Source: a virus. From it: a DNA stretch of 29,547 bases. Positions 9,729-26,763 of the stretch are shown in pieces. The notes beneath the pieces were generated by a model. It was not told the origin of the DNA and ran no database searches. It saw nothing but the letters and a program-made list of their open reading frames with translations. Each line of letters starts with the position of its first letter. Position 1 is the stretch's first letter. The position numbers and the translations under genes are program-made. The stretch spans positions 1-29,547 of the IMG/VR virus record IMGVR_UViG_3300003937_000003; one strand, given 5' to 3'.

Positions 9729-10184
9729 ATGACAAACTTAGCATTTAACTTCCCAAGAGATACATTCTTGGGTTTTGATCAACTCTTTAATACATTACAG
9801 AATACTACATTCGAGGCCGGACGTGGTCAAGGATATCCCCCGTATAATGTAATCAAAAGAGACGATGGTCACTTTTTAATTGAAATCGCTGTTGCAGGAT
9901 TTTCAAAAGAAGATATTGATTTAACACTTGAGAAAGGTGTTTTAACAATTAGCGGTAAGAAACAATCTGGTACAGACACTAGAGAGTATGCTCACCGTGG
10001 TATTTCTCAAAGGGCGTTTGAGCGTTCATTTACTTTAGCCGACACACTAAAAGTTGTTGGTGCTGATATTGTAGATGGAATGCTTGTTGTTATTTTGGAG
10101 AACGATATTCCAGAAAAGGACAAGCCTCAAACTATCAATTTAGGTGACCTGCCGAAATCAGCGAAGAAGCTGTTACTAGGCTAA
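9729..10184 (+). CDS. hsp20: Hsp20 small heat-shock protein
   Basis: This 151-residue protein has an alpha-crystallin domain at about 36-135 with the typical PPYNVIKR entry, IEIAVAGFSKEDI, a GVLTISG strand and a C-terminal GMLVVILEND. It resembles IbpA-type holdases, which keep unfolding proteins soluble, and such genes occur in marine T4-like phages, where a role in virion assembly has been suggested. It follows a late promoter, two leader hairpins and a very strong AGGAGGT site, so high late expression is expected. It heads a run of five genes with iscU next. Confidence 0.9.
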   Translation: MTNLAFNFPRDTFLGFDQLFNTLQNTTFEAGRGQGYPPYNVIKRDDGHFLIEIAVAGFSKEDIDLTLEKGVLTISGKKQSGTDTREYAHRGISQRAFERSFTLADTLKVVGADIVDGMLVVILENDIPEKDKPQTINLGDLPKSAKKLLLG

Positions 10185-10199
10185 ATACTAAGGAGCACT

Positions 10200-10589
10200 A
10201 TGGCATATTCAGATCAAGTTTTAGACCATTACAATAATCCACGCAATGTGGGTAAGATGGATATAACTGACAAAAATGTCGGAACTGGTATGGTAGGTGC
10301 TCCTTCTTGCGGCGACGTTATGAAGCTACAAATTAAAGTTGTAGATGATATTATTGAAGATGCAAAATTTAAAGCATACGGATGTGGAAGTGCGATTGCT
10401 AGTTCTAGCATGGTCACAGAATTGCTCAAAGGTATGTCATTAGAAGATGCAGGAAATATTAAAAATACTTCTATAGTAGAAGCTCTTAGTTTGCCTCCAG
10501 TTAAGATACACTGCTCGGTCTTAGCTGAAGATTCAATTAAAGCAGCAGTCAAAGATTATAAATCAAAACAACCAAAGGTACACAGATGA
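10200..10589 (+). CDS. iscU: IscU/NifU-like Fe-S cluster scaffold protein
   Basis: This 129-residue protein is a full-length IscU: YSDQVLDHYNNPRNVG at the N-terminus, the three ligand cysteines C37 (GAPSCGD), C62 (YGCGSA) and C105 (HC), the conserved D39, and LPPVK at 98-102. LPPVK is the segment bound by the HscA chaperone during cluster release, so the protein looks able to plug into the host Isc machinery. Cluster donor IscS is not in the window. AAGGAG (about 10190-10195) precedes the start, and the stop overlaps the next gene as ATGA. iscU-like genes are known from marine viromes; the need it serves here is unproven. Confidence 0.93.
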   Translation: MAYSDQVLDHYNNPRNVGKMDITDKNVGTGMVGAPSCGDVMKLQIKVVDDIIEDAKFKAYGCGSAIASSSMVTELLKGMSLEDAGNIKNTSIVEALSLPPVKIHCSVLAEDSIKAAVKDYKSKQPKVHR

Positions 10590-10877: not shown

Positions 10878-11525
10878 ATGAATCATGACATAAAGCATTA
10901 TGTCCATAAATCAAGATGGATTAATGATGAACTTTGCAATGAAGTAATTAATACACTTGATATTGAAGACACTTGGTTACCATTTCCAAAAGATGTTGTT
11001 AATGCATATCCAGGTGAGGGAAGATCACAAGATGGCATTGCTGGATCAACATTAAGCATTGATTGGGAACAATTCATGGGTGATCCAAATATTCCTGAAC
11101 AAGAGAGAAATTATGGCTTAGCTCATATGAAAAATCAAGATGTATTAGAAAGACTTCGATCGAGTATACACTCTGGATTAGAGCATTATGTTCACGATTA
11201 TTTAGATGATATAGAATGGTATGATTACTTCAGAAATTTTACTGATCCTAAATTTATGAAATATGAACAAGGTCATGATATGATAGAACATTGCGATCAT
11301 GTTGGAGCCATATTTGATGGCACAAGAAAAGGCATTCCAACTGTTTCAATCGTAGGCAATTTAGGTGATGATTTTGAAGGTGGAGCAATACGATTTTGGG
11401 ATAACACAGATTATTATATGAAGAAAGGCGAACTTATGTTTTTCCCTAGTAACTTCTTATATCCACACAGAGTTCGTAAAGTAACAAAAGGTTTAAGATA
11501 TTCTTTCGTGAGTTGGGTATGGTAG
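10878..11525 (+). CDS. 2-oxoglutarate/Fe(II)-dependent oxygenase
   Basis: This 215-residue protein has the iron triad of the 2OG-Fe(II) superfamily: H138 and D140 (HCD), H197 (YPHRV) and the 2OG-binding R207 in GLRYSFVSW. The order and spacing match prolyl-4-hydroxylase-like members common in T4-like marine phages. The substrate cannot be read from sequence; protein prolines and nucleic-acid bases are both possible. It lies in the same late unit as IscU, so two iron-dependent functions are expressed together. It overlaps the acetyltransferase start by 7 bases. Confidence 0.88.
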   Translation: MNHDIKHYVHKSRWINDELCNEVINTLDIEDTWLPFPKDVVNAYPGEGRSQDGIAGSTLSIDWEQFMGDPNIPEQERNYGLAHMKNQDVLERLRSSIHSGLEHYVHDYLDDIEWYDYFRNFTDPKFMKYEQGHDMIEHCDHVGAIFDGTRKGIPTVSIVGNLGDDFEGGAIRFWDNTDYYMKKGELMFFPSNFLYPHRVRKVTKGLRYSFVSWVW

Positions 11526-11986
11526 AACAAGCTACTTTAGATGATATACCCCAGCTTTGTATTTTGTTAGACGAATTATTTAGTCAAGAAGCAGAATTTA
11601 CTCCTAATCATGAAATACAAGGAAAAGGTCTAAGTAAGATTATAAACAATGAAGATATTGGAGCAATTTTAGTTTGTCGCGCATCAACAATTATGCCTCA
11701 ATTTAATAAAATAATAGGAATGGTAAATATTCTTTATACAATCTCTACTGCATTGGGTGAAAGAGTAGCTAATCTTGAAGATTTTGTCGTTTTGCCTGAA
11801 TTTAGAAATATAGGAGTAGGTTCAGAACTTATATCACATGCAATGCTTTTTGCAAAAGCAAAAGGTTGCCAACGAATTACCTTACTTACTGATGATGATA
11901 ATCAAGATGCACACCGATTTTATGTTAGAAATGGTTTTTCCCGTTCTTCAATGGTTCCATTTAGGCGAAATTTATTAACTACTTAG
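11519..11986 (+). CDS. GNAT-family N-acetyltransferase
   Basis: The best start is ATG 11519 (MVEQATLDDIPQL); a TTG two codons upstream is unlikely. The 155-residue protein shows the GNAT pattern: an N-terminal strand-helix, a central DFVVLPEFRNIGVGSEL with the acetyl-CoA loop R-N-I-G-V-G, and a C-terminal DDDNQDAHRFYVRNGF typical of the last helix and strand. It should transfer an acetyl group to an amine on a protein or small molecule; the target is unknown. The final codons contact the next promoter, whose GTATGTAC begins at the last base of the stop. Confidence 0.85.
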   Translation: MVEQATLDDIPQLCILLDELFSQEAEFTPNHEIQGKGLSKIINNEDIGAILVCRASTIMPQFNKIIGMVNILYTISTALGERVANLEDFVVLPEFRNIGVGSELISHAMLFAKAKGCQRITLLTDDDNQDAHRFYVRNGFSRSSMVPFRRNLLTT

Positions 11987-12017
11987 TATGTACTTTTAGC
12001 TCAAAACGTGGTATAAT
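11986..12017 (+). promoter_or_regulatory. TATGTAC-type promoter for DNA polymerase
   Basis: GTATGTAC at 11986-11993 is followed after 18 bp by TATAAT at 12012-12017, with an extended TGG. The expected start coincides with ATG 12024 of the polymerase. Confidence 0.75.
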
Positions 12018-12023
12018 ACTGCC

Positions 12024-14534
12024 ATGAATAAAGCTTTTTACACGTCAGCCTTCCGTCACGGCAAGGTCATTAAATATTTAGGCTATGAAAATGGTGAAAA
12101 AGTAAAGTTCACTATTCCATTTAAGCCTACTCTATTTGTCACAAACAAAGGTAATAATGCCCACGATTGGCATGCACTCGATGGTACTCCAGTAGAACCT
12201 CTCGTATTTGGATCTATGGGTGAAGCTACTGATTTTATTAAATCATATGCAGATGTACCTGCCTTTAATGTTTATGGCAATACAAATTATGTAGTACAAT
12301 ATATTAATGAAGAGTTTCCTGATGAGATCAAATGGGATCGTAATACAATTAATGTTACATCAATCGATATTGAAACAAAGTTTGGTGATGGGTTTCCTGA
12401 ACCTAAAGAAGCTGATCAGGAAGTAACAGCAATCACAATGAAGAACAATATCGATGATACCTATTATACGTTTGGTTGTGGTGAGTATGATGTGAAGTCA
12501 TCTCTTATGCAAACCAATTCTGTGATTTATGTCAAGTGCGCAGACGAGAGAGAACTCTTACATAAGTTTGTTTATCATTGGTCTAGGACTTCACCTGATA
12601 TTGTCACAGGTTGGAACTGTGAATTCTTTGATATACCATATCTTATTAATCGTATAAAACGTATACTTGGTAATTCACGAGAGAAGTTCCTATCTCCATG
12701 GAGAATGATTGATGAACGTGAGACTCATACAGGTTATGGTCAAACATCTCTCAAATATGAAATTAAAGGTGTGGCCATCTTAGACTATATGGCAATCTTT
12801 AAAAAGTTTGGTTTTACATATGGTCCACAAGAATCATATAAGTTAGATCATATTGCTAATGTTGTATTAGGTGAGAAGAAGCTTGACTTCGGTGAAGCAT
12901 CTGACTTAAATGAGCTGCACGCAAATGACTATCAAAAGTTTATTGACTATAACATCAAAGACGTAGAACTTATCGATCGTATGGAAGACAAGCTCGGTCT
13001 TATTAGTTTATGTCTCACTATGGCTTATAAAGGTGGCGTAAACTATGAACAAGTATTAGGTACTGTGGCTATATGGGATGCATTGCTTTATCGTGACTTA
13101 CATTCAAAACGTATAGCTGTACCACAAAACAAAGAGTCATTTAAAGCAACATTTCCTGGTGGTTATGTAAAAGAACCAATTGTTGGCATGCACGATTGGG
13201 TATGTTCGTTCGATTTGAACTCTCTATATCCATCAATAATTATGCAATACAACATGTCTCCCGAGACTATCTTACTTGATGATGAACCTAATGTCAACGT
13301 TGAATCTGTTCTTCGTGGTGAAGTAACAAACAATAAACCTAACACAGCATTAGCTGTCAATGGCGTTCGTTTTGATACAAAGAAACTTGGTATTATTCCA
13401 GCAATTATTCAAGAGATCTATAATGATCGTGTCAAATTCAAGCAAGCACAACTTAAAGCTGAGCAAGAACTCGAATTATGTGGTAACAAATCAGAAGTGT
13501 ATGCTCTTGAGAAACGTATTGCTATTGCCAAGAACCAACAAATGGCATTAAAGATCCTATTGAATTCCTTATATGGTGCGATGGGTAATAAGTGGTTTAG
13601 ATATTTTGATATGCGTATTGCTGAAGGTATCACACTCACTGGTCAAGCAACTATTCGTTGGGCAGAGAATAACCTAAACGATTACCTTAACAAAACTCTA
13701 CAAACAAATAGAGATTATGTTGTTGCTATTGATACAGATTCATTGTATGTTCGCCTTGACGAGTTTGTCAAACGTCTTGGTCCAGCCAAGCCTATTGACT
13801 TTCTTGACTCAGTATGCAGTGCATTAGAAGATACACTTACTGAATGTTATGATCGTCTATATAAAAACTTAGGTGGTATAGAAAACAAAATGGTTATGGG
13901 TCGTGAGGTGATTGCTGATCGTGGTATATGGACTGCTAAGAAAAGATATATACTCAATGTACATGACAATGAAGGTGTTCGTTATGCCACACCTAAACTA
14001 AAAATTATGGGTATTGAAGCAATTAAATCATCTACTCCTGCTATATGTCGCATAGCATTAAAAGATATATTTCGTAGGATTATGGAAACAGATCAGGCAA
14101 CGGTACAATCAGATATAGCAAACTTCAAAGTGGCATTTCAACAAGCGTCTGCTGAAGAGGTAAGCTTTCCACGAGGTGTAAATAATCTAAATAAATGGAC
14201 AGATAAAGAAACTGTTTATAAGAAAGGTACACCTATACATATTCGTGGTGCAATATTGCATAATAATATGATTAAAAAACAGAAATTAGGTAGAAGTATT
14301 CAAAAGATAACAAGTGGCGACAAAGTAAAGTTCACGTATCTTGTCAAGCCAAATCCAATTAGAGAGAATGTAATTGCATTTGTAGACTATCTTCCACGTC
14401 AATTTAAACTTGAGAAATACATAGATTATAACCTTCAATTCGAAAAGACTTTCCTTAGTGCCATCGAACCTGTATTGGAAGCAGTTGGCTGGTCAAGTGA
14501 GCATAAAGTATCATTAGAAGATTTTTTCGTTTAA
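12024..14534 (+). CDS. 43: DNA polymerase gp43 (family B)
   Basis: This is the replicative polymerase with proofreading. The 836 residues (T4 has 898) show the exonuclease motif DIET at 115-118, Exo II NCEFFDIPYL near 200, Exo III YNIKDVELI near 315, and polymerase motifs A DLNSLYPSI from D397, B KILLNSLYG from about 510 and C DTD at 570-572. The C-terminus ends in SLEDFFV, which resembles the short tail T4 polymerase uses to bind the clamp. The conserved N-terminus (FYTSAFRHG, KPTLF) fixes the start at ATG 12024. It has no Shine-Dalgarno and lies 7 nt after the -10 box, so translation is probably leaderless. Confidence 0.97.
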   Translation: MNKAFYTSAFRHGKVIKYLGYENGEKVKFTIPFKPTLFVTNKGNNAHDWHALDGTPVEPLVFGSMGEATDFIKSYADVPAFNVYGNTNYVVQYINEEFPDEIKWDRNTINVTSIDIETKFGDGFPEPKEADQEVTAITMKNNIDDTYYTFGCGEYDVKSSLMQTNSVIYVKCADERELLHKFVYHWSRTSPDIVTGWNCEFFDIPYLINRIKRILGNSREKFLSPWRMIDERETHTGYGQTSLKYEIKGVAILDYMAIFKKFGFTYGPQESYKLDHIANVVLGEKKLDFGEASDLNELHANDYQKFIDYNIKDVELIDRMEDKLGLISLCLTMAYKGGVNYEQVLGTVAIWDALLYRDLHSKRIAVPQNKESFKATFPGGYVKEPIVGMHDWVCSFDLNSLYPSIIMQYNMSPETILLDDEPNVNVESVLRGEVTNNKPNTALAVNGVRFDTKKLGIIPAIIQEIYNDRVKFKQAQLKAEQELELCGNKSEVYALEKRIAIAKNQQMALKILLNSLYGAMGNKWFRYFDMRIAEGITLTGQATIRWAENNLNDYLNKTLQTNRDYVVAIDTDSLYVRLDEFVKRLGPAKPIDFLDSVCSALEDTLTECYDRLYKNLGGIENKMVMGREVIADRGIWTAKKRYILNVHDNEGVRYATPKLKIMGIEAIKSSTPAICRIALKDIFRRIMETDQATVQSDIANFKVAFQQASAEEVSFPRGVNNLNKWTDKETVYKKGTPIHIRGAILHNNMIKKQKLGRSIQKITSGDKVKFTYLVKPNPIRENVIAFVDYLPRQFKLEKYIDYNLQFEKTFLSAIEPVLEAVGWSSEHKVSLEDFFV

Positions 14535-14535
14535 G

Positions 14536-14582
14536 GTATGTACATATCATAAAAATGTGATATAATATAACATATGAAATAA
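14536..14582 (+). promoter_or_regulatory. TATGTAC-type promoter with start-site mini-ORF (ATG AAA TAA)
   Basis: GTATGTAC at 14536-14543 is followed after 17 bp by TATAAT at 14561-14566 with an extended TGA. At the expected transcription start an ATG (14574) opens a two-codon ORF ending TAA 14580-14582. Its stop abuts AGGAGA, the ribosome-binding site of the gene at 14592. Confidence 0.7.
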
Positions 14583-16493: not shown

Positions 16494-17001
16494 TTATTTC
16501 GATTTAGACCAAGCTAAGATAGAGCAAAGGGCTAATGACGAGTTTGAAAAAATTACATTGACTGGTGGAAGACCAGCTGAAAGAATACTTTATCATTGTA
16601 AAATAGGTCAAGCTGCAGAAGTATATTTTCTAGATAAATGCGGATATACTGATAATCCAAAAGACTATCAAGATATATTTAATCCTGAAAGTGTGAATGT
16701 TGATGTTAAAGTTACAGAAAAAGGTGATCCTACACCAGGGCCTACATATGATATTCAAGGATGTTTTGATGGTGTAGTTGACCATATTATTGGTACAGTT
16801 TATCCTAAAGACCATCCAAAAGCTGGACAAATGAAAACACCGGGACTTGATAAAAGAAGATATGAATGGAATCAAGAAGTTGCTGATAAAATTTATTTTC
16901 TACATCATAACCCAACAACTAGACAATACACGTTTCTATGTACTGCATCTGCAAATAAAGAAGCACGTAAGTATGTACAAGACGCTGTAGATATGTTATA
17001 A
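16462..17001 (+). CDS. Candidate PD-(D/E)XK-type nuclease
   Basis: The start is GTG 16462 with an excellent AAGGAGG (16449-16455) inside the preceding gene; the overlap is 32 bases. The 179-residue protein has E53 in GQAAEVYFL, then D71 and a strand NVDVKVT with D81-V-K83. That spacing resembles the E...D...(D/E)xK core of the restriction-endonuclease-like fold. The DNA-binding or cleavage role is therefore a motif-level guess. Its last codons hold the next promoter: the stop TAA (16999-17001) is part of the -10 box TATAAT. Confidence 0.45.
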   Translation: MQSNLCTETFNYFDLDQAKIEQRANDEFEKITLTGGRPAERILYHCKIGQAAEVYFLDKCGYTDNPKDYQDIFNPESVNVDVKVTEKGDPTPGPTYDIQGCFDGVVDHIIGTVYPKDHPKAGQMKTPGLDKRRYEWNQEVADKIYFLHHNPTTRQYTFLCTASANKEARKYVQDAVDML

Positions 17002-17002
17002 T
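16971..17002 (+). promoter_or_regulatory. TATGTAC-type promoter of the modification operon
   Basis: GTATGTAC at 16971-16978 and TATAAT at 16997-17002 are 18 bp apart with an extended TGT. The whole promoter lies within the end of the candidate nuclease gene, and its stop codon is built into the -10 box. A CGAGGAG ribosome-binding site (17015-17021) precedes the next ATG. This promoter would transcribe the DUF1599 gene, gp42 and the four genes after it. Confidence 0.72.
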
Positions 17003-17027: not shown

Positions 17028-17381
17028 ATGAAAGAATCATTAAAAGTTTTGCAGAAGGCTGCAGAAATTCAAACACAAAAATCAAACGATTATCAAAATC
17101 CTAATTCACGTATTCGTCAAGCAGATTATTATCAGCATGGCTGTGCTACATTATTAGATTTAATGTATGCAAAAGTATTACGTATGCAATCAGTACTTGA
17201 AGCTATGGAATCTGATCCAAATTATAATCCAAACTTTGAATCACTTGAAGATTCATGTGTCGATATTATAAATTATGCATCATTTTTTGTTAGCTATTCA
17301 CGTGGTAAAATGGATGGTCAAGATCCAACTCGTGATTTCTTAAATAGATTACCTAAACAAAATGTTAATACGACCGTATAG
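17028..17381 (+). CDS. DUF1599 / nucleotide-modification-associated domain 1 protein
   Basis: This 117-residue protein has the DUF1599 pattern: KSNDYQNPNSRIRQADYY near residues 18-35, KVLRMQSVLEA near 49-59, and ESLEDSCVDIINYASFF at about 71-87. The family is also called nucleotide modification associated domain 1 because it is found beside DNA base-modification genes; its reaction is not established. Here it is the first gene of the operon and overlaps gp42 (dCMP hydroxymethylase) by 20 bases, which fits that association. The acidic helices are reminiscent of all-alpha pyrophosphatases, so nucleotide binding is plausible. Confidence 0.75.
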   Translation: MKESLKVLQKAAEIQTQKSNDYQNPNSRIRQADYYQHGCATLLDLMYAKVLRMQSVLEAMESDPNYNPNFESLEDSCVDIINYASFFVSYSRGKMDGQDPTRDFLNRLPKQNVNTTV

Positions 17382-18114
17382 AGTATGTGATGTTCGTGAC
17401 TATTTTGTTGGTGCCAAACAAGGTGGCGGCTATGGTCAGACTATAGATAAAACTGGTGTAAAATGTATCGAATTAATTGGTGCATCATTTCTTGCAGATG
17501 AACCAGCAATATTCGGTACACCTAATATAGAATATATCCAAAAAGAAATTAGTTGGTATGAATCAATGTCTCTGAATATTAAAGACATATTTGGTCCAGA
17601 TAAAGAACCACCAGCAGCATGGCAATATGCAGCATCTAACGAAGGTTGGATACATTCTAATTATGGTTATCTTATTTTCCATGAACAAAATCACAATCAA
17701 TATGATAAGTGTTTAGCAGAATTAAAAGCTAATCCTAATTCACGTAGAGCTCTCATGATTTATAATAGACCTGAGATATGGAATGAATATGATATGGATG
17801 GTTGTTCAGATTTTATATGCACTAATTCAGTTGCTTATTATGTTCGTAATGATAAACTACATTGCTCGGTCTCTATGAGATCTAATGATGTCGTATATGG
17901 TTATAAGAATGATTATGCATGGCAACAATATGTGTTACATAATTTAGCAAATGATCTTAAAGTGGAAGTAGGCGATATGATTTGGCAAGTACAGAATTTA
18001 CATGTATATGAAAAACATTTTGACTTAATCAAACCAGGCCAAATTCCTGAACCAAAGCCGCAATTATCAACTGCAGCATCTTATGAAGGTTACGACAATA
18101 GGAATTATGGCTAA
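17362..18114 (+). CDS. 42: dCMP hydroxymethylase gp42
   Basis: This thymidylate-synthase-fold enzyme converts dCMP and methylene-THF to hydroxymethyl-dCMP, which lets the phage replace cytosine in its DNA. The 250 residues (T4 gp42 has 246) match T4 gp42 in KTGVKCIELIGASFLADEP at 30-48, SNYGY, SRRALMIYNRPE, SDFICTN with catalytic C153, and MRSNDVVYGYKNDYAWQ at 172-188. Counting from the RS pair, D184 stands where thymidylate synthases have the dUMP-specific Asn, as D179 does in T4 gp42, so dCMP specificity is supported. No PCH active site of thymidylate synthase is present. Start ATG 17362 overlaps DUF1599. Confidence 0.93.
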   Translation: MLIRPYRVCDVRDYFVGAKQGGGYGQTIDKTGVKCIELIGASFLADEPAIFGTPNIEYIQKEISWYESMSLNIKDIFGPDKEPPAAWQYAASNEGWIHSNYGYLIFHEQNHNQYDKCLAELKANPNSRRALMIYNRPEIWNEYDMDGCSDFICTNSVAYYVRNDKLHCSVSMRSNDVVYGYKNDYAWQQYVLHNLANDLKVEVGDMIWQVQNLHVYEKHFDLIKPGQIPEPKPQLSTAASYEGYDNRNYG

Positions 18115-19156
18115 GAAGTGGTTAAACGAAGAAGCACTAGATGTGCTTGTTAATTATTATTATCCAAGAGCTGCATGGCTACAAGATAATGTCAATTGGG
18201 GTCAATTAGATTACGAAGGTCCTGAAGCAAATAAAGAAGTTAATGATCCGCTATTACAAAAAATAGAAATTTACGATTGTTATACAAGAAATGCAGCTGG
18301 CTTTTCAAATGTATTACAAGACTTATTTCTTGGTTCTAAGACTCCTAAAAAAAGATGGCAAAATGAAAGGCGTAGAGATATATGTCGCTGGAATGATGAA
18401 ATCACATGGGGTCTATCAGCACGTTTTTGGGTAATGATGTGTCATCGTATTACCGGAAGTGGTGCATCGTTTGAAGATGACCATGGATATCGTAATAATA
18501 TTATGCAATATTGGGGAACACAATTTGCTAAAAATGGTATAAAAGAAATGAGTGAAAACATGGTAAAGATGAAAGCCAGTCAAGCAATATTTACTTCTAT
18601 TGGTAATCAACCACCTGCTCCAAAGAAGGGCACGAGTAATGTAGACTTCATGACAAAAGAATTGCCACAATTAATATTTAAATTTGTTGATTGGTTATTG
18701 TATGAAAAGATAGATGGTGAGTATAGAAAGACAATGAAAACTCATAAAGAAATTGTAGACTATTTCAATGCGTATAATAAATCAGCAGGTCATAGAAAGT
18801 TTAATTTTCAATATGCAGCATTCTCTATGGATTGTTCAGACTATTATCCTACAGCAGTAGACCCAGATTCACATACATATTTAGGCAATAATGCTATACG
18901 TTGTATGCAAAAGTTGTCATCAGGATATTCTTCAGATGAGTTCATGGATATATTAAGAGAACGTACAGGTGGAAGACCAAAAGATTTAGAAGATGTTATG
19001 TGTGACTTTGTTAGATTTGGACAGAATTATGTACCAAGAGGCAATGGTACATATGACCATATTCCAAGTGATATAACTAATAATAGTGGTTGGGAATCTG
19101 GTTGGAGACAAAGACAAGGTGAACCACCAGAACAAAACAATATATTACCAATTTAA
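18107..19156 (+). CDS. Helical protein A of the putative hypermodification cluster
   Basis: ATG 18107 (MAKKWLNEEALD) with TAGGA upstream overlaps the gp42 stop by 8 bases and is preferred over ATG 18083. The 349 residues are helical, rich in Trp, Tyr and Arg, with no signal peptide. Residues about 234-263 read YAAFSMDCSDYYP, then VDPDS and YLGNNA, which parallels FARYIAMTWPDLVDPES..GGTG in the next protein and loosely the PE....GPGA pattern of the 5-hydroxymethyluracil DNA kinase helical family (formerly aGPT-Pplase2). The relation is distant and unverified. Position directly after gp42 suggests action on hydroxymethylcytosine nucleotides or DNA. Confidence 0.75.
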   Translation: MAKKWLNEEALDVLVNYYYPRAAWLQDNVNWGQLDYEGPEANKEVNDPLLQKIEIYDCYTRNAAGFSNVLQDLFLGSKTPKKRWQNERRRDICRWNDEITWGLSARFWVMMCHRITGSGASFEDDHGYRNNIMQYWGTQFAKNGIKEMSENMVKMKASQAIFTSIGNQPPAPKKGTSNVDFMTKELPQLIFKFVDWLLYEKIDGEYRKTMKTHKEIVDYFNAYNKSAGHRKFNFQYAAFSMDCSDYYPTAVDPDSHTYLGNNAIRCMQKLSSGYSSDEFMDILRERTGGRPKDLEDVMCDFVRFGQNYVPRGNGTYDHIPSDITNNSGWESGWRQRQGEPPEQNNILPI

Positions 19157-20115
19157 TGCTGTTTGATAATCCAAATAATATAGTATATCCAAATACTACA
19201 GCTGTAGAATTAAATTCTAAAAAGAAACCTACAGATACGTGGATGCAAGACTATACTTTAGACCAAAGAAAAGAAAAGTTCTTTGAATTTTGTAATAAGT
19301 TTGATAAGAGAGAAGATGATTTATTAAGAGATGATTTTCAGATCTTTTCACATCGCTTGCATTGGCATGAACATCCTTATATAGATTTTTTTAAAGATAA
19401 AGAAACATCTTCATTCGACAAAATATGGTATACAATAGCATTCTCTTTTAGCAATGAACATTGGTTAACATTTAAAACACTGTACGATAATGGCAAAGAA
19501 GGATTACGTGAGAGATTTAGAAATCATCGTCACGCTCGTTCAGACTTATTTCAAATATATTATCCTAAAGGCACGAAGGTCAAAGATTGGTTAGTAGATG
19601 TACCTTATAAATGTGCAGAAGATATGGAAGGCATATTAAACACTGGACAAAAATGGACAATGATGCAAATAGCAAAAGAGTTTTGTAATTACTTTATGAC
19701 TCACCATGGTTTTAGAGCACCTATGTACCCATGCAAAAACTTTGCAAGATATATAGCAATGACATGGCCAGATCTGGTCGATCCTGAAAGTGTATTGTTT
19801 GGTGGCACAGGGCATTTCGATGGTATGCAACAAATATTTGGTGGTAAGAATTTAAACGGTAAAGTTAAATATGACATAGGTGACTATGGTGAATTTATTC
19901 CTACCAATAAATATGGTGAATTATGGATTGAACAAATGACTGAATTAGTAGAGGACTCTCGTAATCCTATGATGTCACAAAAATGGTTAAACGTAGAAGA
20001 TAAGACATGTTTCTTTTATAAACATATGGCTATTACTCATGGTGAGAAAAGGCCTACTAAAAGAATCCCAAGAGATTGGATATTTCCACAGGAGTTTAGA
20101 CTTGCCACACAATAA
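19156..20115 (+). CDS. Helical protein B of the putative hypermodification cluster
   Basis: ATG 19156 overlaps the stop of protein A by one base (TAATG). This 319-residue helical protein has a central FARYIAMTWPDLVDPESVLF followed by GGTGHFDGMQQIFGG at about 195-230. Small-residue plus G-x-G patterns after a PES are the most recognisable mark of the base-hypermodification helical proteins (HMUDK / aGPT-Pplase type), so I suggest a distant relationship with moderate doubt. An aromatic/His-rich stretch near residues 56-74 (SHRLHWHEHPY) could bind metal. A and B appear to be related neighbours and may work as a pair. Confidence 0.75.
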   Translation: MLFDNPNNIVYPNTTAVELNSKKKPTDTWMQDYTLDQRKEKFFEFCNKFDKREDDLLRDDFQIFSHRLHWHEHPYIDFFKDKETSSFDKIWYTIAFSFSNEHWLTFKTLYDNGKEGLRERFRNHRHARSDLFQIYYPKGTKVKDWLVDVPYKCAEDMEGILNTGQKWTMMQIAKEFCNYFMTHHGFRAPMYPCKNFARYIAMTWPDLVDPESVLFGGTGHFDGMQQIFGGKNLNGKVKYDIGDYGEFIPTNKYGELWIEQMTELVEDSRNPMMSQKWLNVEDKTCFFYKHMAITHGEKRPTKRIPRDWIFPQEFRLATQ

Positions 20116-20983
20116 ACATATAGAAGACGGATTTAATATCGATGTAGGTATGATGCAACCTGAGGAAGCAAAGGAATATTACTTAGATCTTGCTCAGTTT
20201 TGGACTGATCCTAATCCACCAATTGTTATAACTGAACATGATGGTATACGTTGTGTAAGAGATGACTTAATCGTTGGTTCAAAAACACGTGGTGGTGATT
20301 GTCTTATTAGTTCTCTTCCTCAGCATATAGATACTATTGTCTATGTTCAACCAAGAACGGGTTTAGCTGGAGTAAGTATATTAGATGTAGCAAAAAGACA
20401 TAATAAATCTGTAAGATTATTTATGCCTGCATCAAAAAAGATTTCACATCATCAAGCATGTTGCATAGAGGGAGGAGCAGAAGCATCTTTCCATCGTATT
20501 GCAGCTATGCCTAATCTAAATAAGATAGCAAAAGAATGGGCAGATCAGAAAGAAAATGCATTCTTTGTACCATTAGGATTAAAACATAGAATGGTTACAG
20601 CAGGACTTGTAAAGGTTGCATCACAAATAAAAGAACCTGAACAAGTATGGGTTGCTACATCAACAGGTGTATTGACACGTGCATTACAGATTGCTTGGCC
20701 AAATGCAGAATTTGTATCTGTGGCAGTAGCTCGTAATATGAAAGCAGGTGAATTAGGTAGAGCAAAAGTTATTAGTGAGCCTAAACAATTTATTGTGGCT
20801 GAAAAAGTAGAAAACCTTCCGCCATTTCCTTGTGTAGATACATATGATGGTAAAGTTTGGAAATATATTCCAAAGAATACTGATAAAGATATATTATTTT
20901 GGAATGTTGGTAGTGAACCTGTATTGAATGATATAACAATATATGAAACGGAAAGTTATAGAGATTGGGATAAGAACTTATGA
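20102..20983 (+). CDS. PLP-dependent enzyme, fold type II-like
   Basis: The preferred start is TTG 20102, placed 7 bases after AGGAG (20090-20094); ATG 20039 lies far inside the previous gene and lacks a site. The 293 residues carry VRDDLIVGSKTRGG at 52-65, matching the RxDL..G.(N/S)K.R signature of ACC deaminase/D-cysteine desulfhydrase-type enzymes with K61 as the Schiff-base lysine. TSTGVLTRAL at 186-195 sits where the phosphate-binding GSGGT loop is expected. PLP enzymes occur in phage thymidine-hypermodification pathways, where they process an amino acid attached to the base. Substrate here is unknown. It ends in an ATGA overlap. Confidence 0.75.
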   Translation: MPHNKHIEDGFNIDVGMMQPEEAKEYYLDLAQFWTDPNPPIVITEHDGIRCVRDDLIVGSKTRGGDCLISSLPQHIDTIVYVQPRTGLAGVSILDVAKRHNKSVRLFMPASKKISHHQACCIEGGAEASFHRIAAMPNLNKIAKEWADQKENAFFVPLGLKHRMVTAGLVKVASQIKEPEQVWVATSTGVLTRALQIAWPNAEFVSVAVARNMKAGELGRAKVISEPKQFIVAEKVENLPPFPCVDTYDGKVWKYIPKNTDKDILFWNVGSEPVLNDITIYETESYRDWDKNL

Positions 20984-21921
20984 TTACGGGAACATTCAAT
21001 AAAATACCACGTAAAAAGAATAGCCATGGATATGGTTGGGCTCGAACATGGTCAGAAAACCTAAATGTTCCTATTAATCACGATGGTAATAAAGCTGAAA
21101 TAATTTATGTAGACCATGGAGTAAACTTTGGTGGCAGTCTTAATTTATTTGGTGGATTTACACCTGAATTAAAACAACGTATAGATAATTTTCTATTAGC
21201 AGACGAAGTCTATTCACTTGACATGCCTATGCCAGAATATGGTAATATGTTAGCTAAGAGAAAAGATGTTGAGGATAAAGAATGGTGTGCACATGTTCAA
21301 GCTAAATGCTGGAATGCAAAAACATTATTATCGACAGATCTTGACACTACTTGGTTGACAATTGGTGATTCTCATACAGCAGCATTTGCCCCACCAGGGA
21401 GTATGGTTATTAAGACTGATGGACTTACACTTAATGGTCAAATCAGATCTGATTTTCAGTATATAAAAGATCATATATGGAAATGTAATAATCTAAAAGG
21501 AATCACAATGTCATTTGGTAACATTGATGTAAGACATCATCTTTGTAGATTAAATATAGATCCGAGAGATATGTGGATTGATTGGTTTAGATTTGGAGAT
21601 AGCTTACCTTTTGAGGTAGAGTATTCAACTCCATGGCCAATTGAGCATGAAGAAAGAAGATTACCAAAGACTGGTTATTATAGAGACCAACCATTTTGGG
21701 GTAGTCGTGAAGATAGAGTTATTCAATTAGAACGTATAATTGAAACATTCGAAAAGACTGATACTCCTAGAGTTGCATATCCACAAGATTGGTTAACAAT
21801 GGATCCAGAAGTATTTGCTAAAACAAAAATGGAAAGCACTAGCTCAGTACATATATCGCCTGAAAATTATAGAAGAAAAGACTTCGGTGAAGTATGTACT
21901 TTAGACGCTTTTATGATATAA
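20980..21921 (+). CDS. SGNH/GDSL-like hydrolase
   Basis: This 313-residue protein has the SGNH landmarks in order: WLTIGDSHTA with G129-D130-S131 as block I (candidate nucleophile S131), a DGLTLNGQ block at 147-154, a SFGNID block at 178-183 (G180, N181), and a late H291 in SSVHISPEN. The family includes esterases, deacylases and O-acetyltransferases. Start ATG 20980 overlaps the PLP-enzyme stop as ATGA, so the two are co-translated. It may attach or remove an acyl group in the base-modification pathway, which is inference. Its final codons contain the uvsX promoter, and its stop lies in the -10 box. Confidence 0.7.
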   Translation: MITGTFNKIPRKKNSHGYGWARTWSENLNVPINHDGNKAEIIYVDHGVNFGGSLNLFGGFTPELKQRIDNFLLADEVYSLDMPMPEYGNMLAKRKDVEDKEWCAHVQAKCWNAKTLLSTDLDTTWLTIGDSHTAAFAPPGSMVIKTDGLTLNGQIRSDFQYIKDHIWKCNNLKGITMSFGNIDVRHHLCRLNIDPRDMWIDWFRFGDSLPFEVEYSTPWPIEHEERRLPKTGYYRDQPFWGSREDRVIQLERIIETFEKTDTPRVAYPQDWLTMDPEVFAKTKMESTSSVHISPENYRRKDFGEVCTLDAFMI

Positions 21922-21966: not shown

Positions 21967-22992
21967 ATGGACAAATTACAGAAGAACTCTCGTATAAAAG
22001 AGTCTTCGCCACTAGATAAATCACAATTATTTTCTAGTCAAGAAATGGTAACCACAAAGGTACCCATGATTAACGTTGCATTGTCAGGTGATCCTGACGG
22101 TGGACTTACTTCAGGACTAACAGTGCTAGCAGGACCATCGAAGCATTTTAAGACTTCGTTTGGATTGCTAATGGCCGCAGCCTACTTAGAAAAATATGAA
22201 GATGCTGTTTTGTTATTCTATGATTCAGAGTTTGGCTCACCGCAACAATATTTTAAATCGTTTGGTATAGACACTTCACGTGTACTACATTGTCCCATTA
22301 CAAATGTAGAAGAGCTTAAGTTTGATCTTATATCTCAGCTCGAAAATATTGAACGAAAAGATAAAGTCATTATTATGATTGACTCTATCGGTAACCTAGC
22401 TTCTAAGAAAGAGCTAGAAGATGCTATGAATGAAAAGTCAGTAGCAGATATGTCAAGAGCGAAAGCTCTTAAAGGTTTATTTAGAATGACAACCCCTTAT
22501 CTGACAATGAGAGATATACCATTGTTAGCTGTCAACCATACATATCAAGAAATAGGCTTATTTCCCAAAGCAGTCGTTTCCGGCGGCACAGGTATTTACT
22601 ACTCCTCAGATAATATCTGGATCGTCGGACGTCAGCAAGAAAAGAAGGGAACAGAAATTCAAGGTTATCATATGATTATTAATGTAGAAAAATCTAGATT
22701 TGTAAAAGAAAAGTCTAAGATTCCTATTAGTGTTACATGGGAAGGTGGTATTGAAATATATTCTGGTTTATTAGATGTAGCAATGGAAGGCAATTATGTT
22801 GTTAAACCTCAAAATGGTTGGTACTCTAAAGTCGATAAATCTACTGGTGAAGTAGAAGACAAAAAGGTCCGATTAAGTGAAACATTAAAAGAAGAATTTT
22901 GGAGACCAGTATTTGCAAATACAGATTTTAAAGATTATATTAAAACTAAATATGAAGTAGGTCATGCGGAGATGATTAAGAGTGCAAATTGA
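21967..22992 (+). CDS. uvsX: UvsX recombinase (RecA-like)
   Basis: UvsX forms presynaptic filaments on ssDNA and drives strand invasion for recombination-dependent replication. The 341 residues align with T4 UvsX through TKVPMINVALSGDPDGGLTSG, Walker A GPSKHFKT at 56-63, LFYDSEFG, Walker B-like VIIMIDSIGNLASKKE and VNHTYQE, then the WYSKVDKSTGE region. It lacks the long acidic C-terminal tail of T4 UvsX (391 residues). The start is uncertain: ATG 21967 is 16 bases from GAGGAG, while ATT 21955 and ATC 21958 lie at normal spacing, so a rare start codon or an unusual site is possible. It overlaps gp41 by 11 bases. Confidence 0.95.
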   Translation: MDKLQKNSRIKESSPLDKSQLFSSQEMVTTKVPMINVALSGDPDGGLTSGLTVLAGPSKHFKTSFGLLMAAAYLEKYEDAVLLFYDSEFGSPQQYFKSFGIDTSRVLHCPITNVEELKFDLISQLENIERKDKVIIMIDSIGNLASKKELEDAMNEKSVADMSRAKALKGLFRMTTPYLTMRDIPLLAVNHTYQEIGLFPKAVVSGGTGIYYSSDNIWIVGRQQEKKGTEIQGYHMIINVEKSRFVKEKSKIPISVTWEGGIEIYSGLLDVAMEGNYVVKPQNGWYSKVDKSTGEVEDKKVRLSETLKEEFWRPVFANTDFKDYIKTKYEVGHAEMIKSAN

Positions 22993-24331
22993 AACATTAA
23001 TTCTTCGTAATTTAATGTTCAATGAGGATTACACCAGAACGGTGATTCCTCATTTGAAAACTATATACTTTGAAGACCCACACAGATCAGTATTTAATGA
23101 GATCGTTGACTTCGTTAATAAGTTTAATAAGTTGCCATCAGCAGATGCACTAATTATTGAGTTAAAGAATAATCCTAAGATTACATCAGATTCTCTTGCT
23201 CTTATGCCTGAATTAAGTAAGGTAGATACAGAACAAACACAAGAATGGTTAATTGAGAAGACAGAGAAATGGTGTCAAGATAGAGCAATCTATTTAGCAA
23301 TTATGGATTCTATTAATATTATTGAAGGCAAGCATGATACATTAGATAAGAATGCATTGCCATCTGTGTTAAGTGATGCATTAAGTGTTAACTTTGATAT
23401 GAGAGTTGGTCACGATTATGTAGATGATTCTGATGGTCGTTATGAATTCTATCATAGACAAGAGGAACACTTACCATTTGACTTAGAAAAGTTTAACACA
23501 ATCACCAAAGGTGGTCTCGTTAAGAAGTCTCTTAATGTTGCCTTAGCAGGTACAGGTGTTGGTAAGTCTTTATTCATGTGTCATGTCGCTGCTGGTGCCC
23601 TAACACAAATGAAAAATGTCTTATATATAACTATGGAAATGGCAGAAGAAAGGATAGCAGAACGTATTGACGCTAATCTAATGAATGTGCCTATTGACCA
23701 ATTAGAGAATTTAAGTAAGGATATGTTCGATAAGAAAATGCATAAGCTTACTGATAAAGGTGTTGGTAAACTTATTGTGAAAGAATATCCTACAGGAGCT
23801 GCAAGTTCTATTCACTTTAGAGCACTATTAAAAGAATTAAAGATTAAGCGTGACTTCACACCTGATCTTATTTGCATAGACTATCTAAATATATGTGCAT
23901 CATCAAGAATGAAATCTATGGGTGGTGCAATCAATTCATATATTATGGTCAAAGCAATTGCAGAAGAATTGCGTGGCTTAGCAGTAGAATATAATTTACC
24001 TATTGTTACAGCCACACAAACCACACGTTCAGGTTTTGCATCATCTGATGTGGGACTAGAAGATACAAGTGAATCATTTGGTTTACCAGCTACGGCTGAC
24101 CTCATGTTTGCACTTATATCTACTGAAGAACTAGAGAACCTTAATCAAATAATGGTTAAGCAATTAAAGAATAGGTATAATGATCCTACAGGTGGAAACA
24201 AAAAGTTTGTACTTGGCATTGATAGATCGAAGATGAGATTATATGATGTAGAGGATACGGCTCAAACTCTAAATGTTAGAGATGACCAACCTAAAAAAAT
24301 ATCACAATTTGAGGATTTTAAGTATGAGTAA
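22982..24331 (+). CDS. 41: Replicative helicase gp41
   Basis: This DnaB-type hexameric helicase unwinds the fork and works with a primase. The 449 residues (T4 gp41 has 475) show the DnaB-like N-terminal helical domain, then Walker A GTGVGKS at 190-196, YITMEMAEERIAERIDANL, a Walker B region DLICIDYLNI and SESFGLPATADLMF near residue 365, all matching T4 gp41. The start is GTG 22982, in-frame, with GGAG about 10 bases upstream, overlapping uvsX. The uvsX-41 order is as in T4 minus gene 40. The usual primase gene 61 does not follow; a dCMP deaminase does. Confidence 0.95.
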   Translation: MQIETLILRNLMFNEDYTRTVIPHLKTIYFEDPHRSVFNEIVDFVNKFNKLPSADALIIELKNNPKITSDSLALMPELSKVDTEQTQEWLIEKTEKWCQDRAIYLAIMDSINIIEGKHDTLDKNALPSVLSDALSVNFDMRVGHDYVDDSDGRYEFYHRQEEHLPFDLEKFNTITKGGLVKKSLNVALAGTGVGKSLFMCHVAAGALTQMKNVLYITMEMAEERIAERIDANLMNVPIDQLENLSKDMFDKKMHKLTDKGVGKLIVKEYPTGAASSIHFRALLKELKIKRDFTPDLICIDYLNICASSRMKSMGGAINSYIMVKAIAEELRGLAVEYNLPIVTATQTTRSGFASSDVGLEDTSESFGLPATADLMFALISTEELENLNQIMVKQLKNRYNDPTGGNKKFVLGIDRSKMRLYDVEDTAQTLNVRDDQPKKISQFEDFKYE

Positions 24332-24791
24332 TTTATTAACAGCAGAAGGATGGGGAAATAAATATACCCATCTTGCAAAAGAAATATCTACATGGTCTAA
24401 GGACCCAAGCACTAAAGTTGGTGCTATAGTTGTTGGTGAAGCAGGCCAAATATTATCACAAGGATATAATGGTTTCCCAAGAGGTATTAAAGATTCATCA
24501 GATAGATTAAATGATCGTGAAAGAAAGTATGAATTAGTTGTACATGCAGAGATGAATGCTATATATAATGCTAGTCTTAATGGAGTTTCTTTAAAAGATT
24601 CTACATTATATGTGTATGGTTTACCTATTTGCAATGAATGTGCTAAAGGCATTATTCAAGTTGGTATAAAAAAGGTTGTTGCTATGAGACCTCAAATATA
24701 TAATTCCGAATGGGATAAATCACTAAAAGCTGCTGAAGCTTTATTTAGAGAAGCCGAAGTAATGTATTTAATTGACGTGGAGGATGAATGA
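24324..24791 (+). CDS. cd: dCMP deaminase
   Basis: This zinc enzyme converts dCMP to dUMP, feeding dTTP synthesis. With start ATG 24324 (overlapping gp41 by 8 bases) it has 155 residues with KDPSTKVGAIVV, the catalytic HAE at 74-76, and the zinc ligands C103 and C106 (PICNEC). An upstream in-frame ATG at 24273 lies deep in gp41 and adds an unrelated leader. With gp42 present, dCMP is the shared substrate of two enzymes, the same branch point as in T4. Its stop overlaps the next small gene as ATGA. Confidence 0.9.
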   Translation: MSNLLTAEGWGNKYTHLAKEISTWSKDPSTKVGAIVVGEAGQILSQGYNGFPRGIKDSSDRLNDRERKYELVVHAEMNAIYNASLNGVSLKDSTLYVYGLPICNECAKGIIQVGIKKVVAMRPQIYNSEWDKSLKAAEALFREAEVMYLIDVEDE

Positions 24792-24927: not shown

Positions 24928-24959
24928 CTATGTACAAAGCGCTAAAAGTATGTTATAAT
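24928..24959 (+). promoter_or_regulatory. TATGTAC-type promoter for the glycine-zipper gene
   Basis: CTATGTAC at 24928-24935 (one base different from the usual GTATGTAC) is followed after 18 bp by TATAAT at 24954-24959 with an extended TGT. AAAGGAG (24972-24978) then precedes ATG 24985. No ATG lies at the expected start here. Confidence 0.7.
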
Positions 24960-26040: not shown

Positions 26041-26763
26041 ATGCAGTCATTTAAGATTTATCTATCAGAAGGAAGACACGATCCTTCAATATTCAAGGCA
26101 GTTTTTATGGCAGGTGCTCCAGGCGCAGGCAAATCTTTTGTCTCTGATTGGATGGCATTAGGACCACAACTTGGATATAAAGTAATCAATTCTGATACAG
26201 AATTCGAACGTTATATGAAAGAGGCAGGCTTGACTGATGATAAAGGTGCAGTTATTCTTGATCCTAAAAGAGAATTCGAACGTGGTGTTATACGATCAGT
26301 AGCAAAGAGACATACACAAGCTAAGCAAAGACATGCCTTAATTGGTAGATTAGGTCTTGTTATCGATGGTACAGCTGCAAATGCGGCTAAAATAATAAAA
26401 CAAAAGAAATTTTTAGAGACACTTGGTTATGAATGTGCTATGGTTTATGTTAATGTTCCTTTAGATGTTTCAATAGCATCAGACAAAGAGCGTGGTGAAC
26501 AAGGTGATAGATCAATAGGACCAGAACTTGTCACACAAAAATATAATGAATTAGATAAAGGTATACCTAAATTAATAAAAGCATTTGGCACAGTAACTAC
26601 TGGATTTGGGCCTAAACCTAGTAAATCAATGTTTTTTATAGTAGATAATACAGTAAGAGAAAAAACACCAAGTCTAATTCGTAAGGTGTTAGGTGATATT
26701 ACTAAGTGGTCTAAACAACTACCAAAAAATAGTGCAGCAAAACAATGGATGAGAAATAACTAA
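26041..26763 (+). CDS. P-loop kinase (zeta-toxin/AAA_33-like) with capsid-targeting-like N-terminus
   Basis: This 240-residue protein has a Walker A GAPGAGKS at about 26-33, then NSD near residue 57 and a conserved IDGTAAN around 105-111, the layout of zeta-toxin-like small kinases found in T4-like marine phages. The N-terminus MQSFKIYLSE-G resembles the T4 internal-protein targeting sequence MKTYQEFIAE-A, including position 4 aromatic, 8 aliphatic and 10 Glu. The substrate is unknown; nucleotides, nucleotide sugars and proteins are possible. It starts the late operon and its stop overlaps the next ATG (TAATG). Confidence 0.75.
   Translation: MQSFKIYLSEGRHDPSIFKAVFMAGAPGAGKSFVSDWMALGPQLGYKVINSDTEFERYMKEAGLTDDKGAVILDPKREFERGVIRSVAKRHTQAKQRHALIGRLGLVIDGTAANAAKIIKQKKFLETLGYECAMVYVNVPLDVSIASDKERGEQGDRSIGPELVTQKYNELDKGIPKLIKAFGTVTTGFGPKPSKSMFFIVDNTVREKTPSLIRKVLGDITKWSKQLPKNSAAKQWMRNN

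Follow-up and report, generated by a model that had tools for sequence, protein, structure and literature searches.

A candidate operon for making hydroxymethylcytosine and decorating it with a non-sugar group in a T4-like virus

The DNA analysed here, hereafter the window, is the entire IMG/VR virus record IMGVR_UViG_3300003937_000003 (29,547 bases; G+C 34%). At positions 17028-21921 it carries six open reading frames (ORFs) on the + strand, each of which runs into the next by overlap, as a first-pass annotation of this DNA had described. The second gene of this operon encodes gp42, a dCMP hydroxymethylase, and the four genes behind it encode two helical proteins, termed H1 and H2, a pyridoxal phosphate (PLP) enzyme of fold type II and an SGNH-like protein. 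These four genes are referred to as the H cassette. It is well supported that the H cassette is a set for the decoration of 5-hydroxymethylcytosine (hmC) with a group other than a sugar, and by analogy with the thymidine-hypermodification systems of other phages this group is most likely derived from an amino acid. The operon as a whole therefore probably makes hmC and decorates it in DNA with an amino-acid-derived group. We infer hmC in DNA as the substrate, the amino-acid origin of the group, and the order of the steps and their assignment to individual proteins.

The strongest evidence for the decoration of hmC is that the H cassette is exchanged for sugar sets in one slot of the genome, between gp42 (17362-18114, + strand) and uvsX (21967-22992, + strand; T4_UVSX_C, E = 1.8e-16), which forms the right border of the slot. 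T4-like phages place their hmC-modification genes between the DNA polymerase gene and uvsX (PMC8056088). Among the loci with a complete gp42-to-uvsX interval, counted as distinct by their gp42 protein (n = 84, ascertained partly through H1 and H2), 59 contain the H cassette, 19 contain a sugar cassette and six contain a cassette of HMUDK_hel and SGNH genes, and two kinds are never found together. The cassette type has switched about 12 times by parsimony, both on the gp42 tree and on the uvsX tree, and at least five to six of these switches are forced by well-supported branches. Where loci were ascertained through gp42 alone, the complete slots comprise 17 with the H cassette and 20 with a sugar cassette, none with both and one with neither (Fisher P = 6e-10 for the exclusion, relatedness being ignored). 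The single slot with neither, that of locus L347, holds HMUDK_hel and SGNH genes.

The sugar cassettes encode nucleotidyltransferases, epimerases, UDP-galactopyranose mutase and glycosyltransferase-like proteins. Among the transferases examined from these slots, two match PF11440, the family of the T4 DNA alpha-glucosyltransferase, with 46 and 106 bits. The T4 enzyme acts on hmC. A search with PF11440 is positive for five of seven sugar-slot records, whereas both H-cassette records searched, including one of 140 kb, are negative. An epimerase-like gene is present in nine of the H slots, none of which has a detected glycosyltransferase. Sugar cassettes are carried by phages whose gp42 is up to 87% identical to that of the window. 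Neither T4 glucosyltransferase family (PF11440, alpha; PF09198, beta) is found in the window, in agreement with the first-pass annotation, or in 12 related module-bearing records, which are incomplete. The gp42 gene is present in all 88 loci that extend back as far as the primase gene, and the PLP and SGNH genes are both present in 114 of 124 gp42 loci (some contigs counted twice). These results support the earlier proposal of an hmC decoration that is carried out by the genes following gp42 and does not depend on a glucosyltransferase, because the same slot of sister phages holds sugar and glucosyltransferase sets, and never both kinds of cassette. Most sugar cassettes also encode a C5-cytosine-methylase-like protein (PF00145, E = 5e-13; L292:14450-15685, L329:9254-10471 and L326:13420-14622).

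From sequence comparison, the assignment of gp42 to the dCMP hydroxymethylase family is certain, so that its product would be 5-hydroxymethyl-dCMP. It matches PF00303 (E = 1.8e-22), and its best solved match is the T4 dCMP hydroxymethylase (1b49, E = 1e-70), with thymidylate synthases next (E = 5e-16 or weaker); the original call of this gene is thus confirmed. The segment RSNDVVYGYKND of gp42 aligns with RSNDVVFGFRND of the T4 enzyme, and both the specificity Asp and the catalytic Cys are aligned. Asp, and not Asn, occupies the pyrimidine-specificity position in all 42 non-redundant relatives of gp42, and the F-x-C-T motif around the catalytic Cys is present in nearly all of them. The identity of the window's gp42 to the proteins of known T4-like isolates is about 50%. 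Because the hydroxymethylase is of the dCMP type, with Asp at this position, the decorated base would be cytosine.

The first gene of the operon (17028-17381, + strand) encodes a small MazG-like/DUF1599 (Nmad1) protein, which is a probable dCTP-pool enzyme. The DUF1599 domain reported earlier is present as a match to PF07659 (E = 0.005), but this match lies below the Pfam cut-off (17.6 versus 25 bits). The protein also matches the hydrolase family phrog_18404, as does the upstream MazG protein. Because this gene occurs with both cassette types, including upstream of sugar cassettes, its product is more likely to clear the nucleotide pool than to take part in the decoration.

The PLP enzyme (20102-20983, + strand) matches phrog_7093 (E = 2.7e-37), and a match to PALP is found below the Pfam cut-off. 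Its sequence identifies it as a homologue of gp52 of phage M6, a protein of a thymidine-hypermodification locus. The M6 gp52 profile finds the PLP proteins of the cassettes at E of about 1e-5, the hhalign probability is 98%, and the PLP lysine, Lys82, and the block PFP..YD.K.W..FWN(V/I)G are common to the cassette enzyme and M6. These matches bear out the fold-type-II call. In M6, gp52 adjoins gp51, the gene for the amino acid:DNA transferase, and the PLP enzyme reportedly removes the carboxyl group of the amino acid bound to DNA. Relatives of the PLP enzyme in isolates are found inside proteins annotated as 'DNA modification methylase' of Erythrobacter phages R6L and ZS04, and beside genes of the ParB/sulfiredoxin fold in Microcystis phage Mae-JY30 (loci of these Erythrobacter and Microcystis phages: L003 8001-8696, L004 6384-8702 and L005 2326-4764); they possibly represent another PLP-based DNA modification.

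H1 (18107-19156, + strand) and H2 (19156-20115, + strand) had been described as two related helical proteins. Their AlphaFold models (pLDDT 84 and 87, respectively) are all-helical or nearly so, in agreement with the structural part of this description, but their relatedness in sequence is weak (hhalign P = 0.0013). Neither protein has a family in Pfam, PHROGs or NCBIfam, and a tblastn search with H1, H2 and a divergent H2 finds no relative among 50,697 isolate phage records. Hundreds of relatives are found among viral contigs. H1 is encoded by almost all copies of the cassette and forms two branches, H1a, to which the protein of the window belongs, and H1b, which are 27-30% identical to each other.

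The best solved match of the H2 model, with Z = 9.7 over 227 residues, is 8z2n, the 5-PmdU glycinyltransferase of phage PaMx11, and the next chain has a Z score of 7.2. Its top match in BFVD is A0A6J5LCY1 (TM-score 0.91, 51% identity), to which the database gives the name 'Amino acid:DNA transferase domain-containing'. The H2 profile finds no match among PDB sequences. From its predicted fold, H2 is a candidate amino acid:DNA transferase. The best named BFVD matches of the H1 model are ADDT, aGPT-PPlase clade 1 and HMUDK_hel proteins. Its matches in the PDB are only helix-hairpin-helix (HhH) DNA glycosylases (Z up to 10) and DUF2419, and the link of H1 to ADDT and HMUDK is for this reason weaker than that of H2. 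The HhH glycosylases have the same general fold as the ADDT/HMUDK group. A C-terminal motif, ExxxC-x-(F/W/Y), is present in all five families compared; it was noticed post hoc and is suggestive as a link between the families. We therefore regard H1 and H2 as new families within the ADDT/HMUDK fold group and do not assign them to PF18723 or PF18724. The likeness of the operon to parts of thymidine-hypermodification pathways, which had been noticed from the sequence, is thus seen both in the predicted folds of H1 and H2, which resemble those of ADDT and 5-hydroxymethyldeoxyuridine (5-hmdU) kinases, and in the homology of the PLP enzyme to that of M6.

Two other genes were considered as homologues of the H genes, ORF25 and ORF26 of phage phiAS4, and were rejected: ORF25 is a UDP-galactopyranose mutase, and ORF26 gives no match. 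In some H1a phages the cassette is surrounded by an aldolase/synthase-like gene ('IIAGPCQHE') and by genes of the nucleotidyltransferase-like and nucleotide-sugar types (L098:3150-7090 and 11027-12774).

The SGNH-like protein (20980-21921, + strand) is a putative accessory of hmC-decoration cassettes and matches phrog_13881 (E = 7.8e-52). The motifs GDSH, G(N/S)ID and a late SxH are present, as expected from the first reading of this gene. In 30 aligned members, GDSH and the block-V His are invariant, and the block-III Asn is replaced by Ser in many. No SGNH/GDSL match is found in Pfam, and the profile of the family has no match among PDB sequences. A related domain, 25-31% identical to that of the window, is common to the Aeromonas T4-like phages 44RR, 31 and UP87. 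In ORF233c of 44RR (L001:6992-9379), which is adjoined by a sodium:solute symporter gene, this domain is fused to a domain of the HMUDK_hel type, for which the Pfam match to HMUDK_hel is weak and the match to a marine HMUDK_hel protein has E = 2e-35. In other gp42 phages the SGNH gene lies beside a gene for a genuine HMUDK_hel protein. This is the third type of slot (L347:11162-13314, and also L356-L374), in which a marine HMUDK_hel protein (PF18723, E = 1.7e-9) is combined with SGNH; L347 also has an inositol-1-phosphate-synthase-like gene. The HMUDK_hel and SGNH cassette suggests a further decoration of hmC.

In the pathway that we propose, gp42 would make 5-hydroxymethyl-dCMP, and the MazG-like/DUF1599 protein, together with the MazG protein encoded from 14592, would probably remove dCTP, with the result that hmC takes the place of C. 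H1, either alone or with H2, would flip out hmC in DNA, activate its hydroxymethyl group and attach an amino acid; activation by H1 is proposed because of the analogy with the 5-hmdU DNA kinase. The PLP enzyme would then shorten this amino acid to an amino-alkyl group, probably through a decarboxylation like that proposed for M6, and the SGNH-like protein may add, remove or edit an acyl or ester group. The evidence leans slightly toward H1 and H2 being hmC-specific kinase and transferase families, which with the PLP enzyme and the SGNH-like protein would form an hmC analogue of the HMUDK/ADDT systems that is widespread in marine T4-like phages.

Several results weigh against this pathway. None of 40 H1 and 19 H2 proteins matches PF18723 (HMUDK_hel) or PF18724 (ADDT) at E ≤ 5, under conditions in which the positive controls, M6 gp51 and gp55, match. 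Comparison of profiles, which joins the PLP enzyme to the M6 family, gives no significant result for H1 or H2 against the HMUDK and ADDT families of M6 or against the marine HMUDK_hel family. The known relatives HMUDK and ADDT, when compared with each other, give only P = 0.0026 by hhalign, which is nearly as poor as the H1 and H2 comparisons. Because Pfam and hhalign fail, the link of H1 and H2 to this group rests on the predicted folds and the short C-terminal motif. H2 accompanies H1b in 64 of 66 loci and H1a in only 17 of 143 loci (these counts, like those of the company of gp42, include contigs fetched twice), and no H2 is found elsewhere in six H1a records that were checked. Because most H1a cassettes are without H2, a simple split into one kinase and one transferase fails for some cassettes, and the assignment of H1 as kinase and H2 as transferase is untenable as a rule for every cassette. 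The SGNH-like protein has no clear role in the pathway. Commercial 5-HMUDK leaves hmC unphosphorylated (PMC6457204), and a new activator specific for cytosine is therefore needed. The cassette records are all metagenomic and mostly incomplete. A P-loop kinase of the window (26041-26763) was also considered as the supplier of the kinase step and was set aside, because its homologues are inconsistently present.

It is possible, although rather unlikely, that hmC is decorated with a group that is not an amino acid, in such a way that H1 activates hmC, the SGNH-like protein works as an acyl- or other transferase for an acyl, ester or polyol group and the PLP enzyme makes the small-molecule donor. 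The SGNH gene is the one that the H cassette has in common with the HMUDK_hel cassette, which has no detected PLP gene and is neighboured by an inositol-1-phosphate-synthase-like gene, and its domain is fused to HMUDK_hel in 44RR. H2, the best candidate for a transferase, is often absent, and the PLP profile distantly resembles cysteine synthases, so that this enzyme could make a free metabolite. However, the closest characterised setting of the PLP enzyme is the thymidine-hypermodification locus of M6, beside an amino acid:DNA transferase, and H2 resembles a glycinyltransferase.

It is improbable that H1 and H2 are HhH-fold DNA glycosylases or nucleases, which serve for defence or for the destruction of host DNA and neighbour gp42 by chance. 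H1 resembles HhH 8-oxoguanine glycosylases among its PDB matches, and anti-phage glycosylases that act on hmC or glucosyl-hmC exist (PMC13160076), but a Pfam glycosylase family is found in none of the 59 H1 and H2 members, and neither the steady company of the PLP and SGNH genes nor the exchange with sugar cassettes is expected for a repair enzyme. The least probable explanation is a cassette for metabolism or the cell surface (amino-acid turnover or an anti-host esterase) that is unrelated to DNA, because the strict placement between gp42 and uvsX, the presence of gp42 in every informative locus and the exclusion with glucosyltransferase cassettes argue against it, although type-II PLP enzymes and SGNH proteins are common metabolic enzymes and varied auxiliary phage genes occur in the neighbourhood. 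Making of hmC and its decoration with an amino-acid-derived group remains the preferred reading of the operon.

A single promoter had been placed ahead of the operon, and such a promoter, TGTACA-N17-TATAAT, is located at 16974-17002 (+ strand), followed by GAGGAG and by the ATG at 17028. The motif is phage-specific: the window has four exact matches to TGTACA-N15-18-TATAAT, all on the + strand, against 0.15 expected, and none of 100 shuffled windows reaches four copies. The copies, with N16 or N17, lie at 908-935, 14539-14566, 16974-17002 and 24931-24959, each shortly upstream of an ORF (starts 943, 14592, 17028 and 24985, respectively), and relatives carry similar copies. In a generic sigma-70 scan, the promoter at 16974-17002 is no better than shuffles. 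Within the operon, the lengths of homologues favour the start at 18107 for H1 and the TTG start at 20102 for the PLP enzyme over the starts of the longest ORFs, 18083 and 20039, respectively.

The cassette is also found in a different type of phage (records of 126-212 kb), in which SGNH, H1b, H2 and PLP genes form one operon in this order and gp42 does not adjoin. A DUF6378 protein is encoded upstream of this operon in one record. The 212-kb record of this lineage has, elsewhere (L223:7892-8747), a divergent relative of thymidylate synthase with the dCMP-type Asp at the specificity position, and a frameshift close to the end of this hydroxymethylase-like gene seems to break it in two. No hydroxymethylase-like gene is seen in the other records of the lineage, which are incomplete.

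The window represents a T4-like virus of a type known only from metagenomes. No close isolate is found, and contigs nearly identical to the window are present among the IMG/VR viral contigs. Its T4-like gene set consists of genes for the sliding clamp, clamp loader, regA-type translational repressor, DNA polymerase B, a primase-related protein, gp42, uvsX, the gp41 helicase and dCMP deaminase. The dCMP deaminase gene (cd; 24273-24791, + strand; PF00383, E = 2.3e-20) lies within the slot in many relatives, with gp42 on one side and the cassette on the other. A 2-oxoglutarate-Fe(II) oxygenase (10878-11525), a GNAT acetyltransferase (11513-11986) and the above-mentioned kinase of the Zeta-toxin/AAA_33 type are encoded near the operon; they could be further modification enzymes, although their linkage to the cassette is inconsistent. 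A protein with a NifU-like N-terminal region (10200-10589) and an Hsp20 chaperone (9729-10184) are also encoded by the phage.

Amino-acid decorations are known on 5-hydroxymethyluracil, that is, on thymine-type bases. If the proposed reading is true, a cytosine version adds a new DNA base, new enzymes and tools for the handling of hmC, and the content of the gp42-uvsX slot is a simple guide to further base chemistries. A phage whose hmC is covered is protected against defences aimed at this base, for example McrBC and hmC glycosylases (PMC13160076). The decorations known for hmC are glucosyl, gentiobiosyl, arabinosyl and carbamoyl groups (PMC2993671, PMC6024577, PMC8670742), and a search of open-licence papers gave no report of hmC that bears an amino-acid-derived group.

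Among the known systems, the Aeromonas phages 44RR and 31 have gp42 and no glucosyltransferase (PMC2993671). Like the window, these two phages and UP87 have the SGNH domain, which is joined there to an HMUDK_hel-type domain. In contrast to the window, no PLP, H1 or H2 homologue is detected in these three phages, and their helical domain is of the HMUDK_hel group and not of H1 or H2. The SGNH-HMUDK_hel protein of 44RR now has a candidate role that bears on the question, left open in 2010, of what, if anything, covers hmC in gp42-positive phages without glucosyltransferases such as this one (PMC2993671). 44RR is cultured, gp42-positive and glucosyltransferase-free, and can be grown and tested.

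The glucosylation of hmC in T4 is similar to the system of the window in its hydroxymethylase and in its genome region, and sister phages hold PF11440 proteins in the same slot; it differs in that neither PF11440 nor PF09198 is present in the window or its module-bearing relatives. Non-glucose decoration of hmC beside a dCMP hydroxymethylase gene is found for arabinosyl-hmC of RB69 (PMC6024577) and for 5-carbamoyloxymethylcytosine, detected by MetaGPA (PMC8670742), but these systems use a glycosyltransferase or a carbamoyltransferase, and the H cassette contains neither enzyme. The thymidine-hypermodification systems of phages M6, PaMx11 and ViI resemble the operon in that a hydroxymethyl-pyrimidine is made by a relative of thymidylate synthase, and in that helical HhH-fold proteins of the kinase/transferase type are accompanied by an adjacent type-II PLP enzyme, that of M6 being gp52. 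M6 has a radical-SAM-family protein beside its PLP gene, which is not seen in the cassette of the window. Unlike in these phages, the hydroxymethylase of the window is of the dCMP type, H1 and H2 do not belong to the curated families HMUDK_hel and ADDT, and an SGNH-like protein is added.

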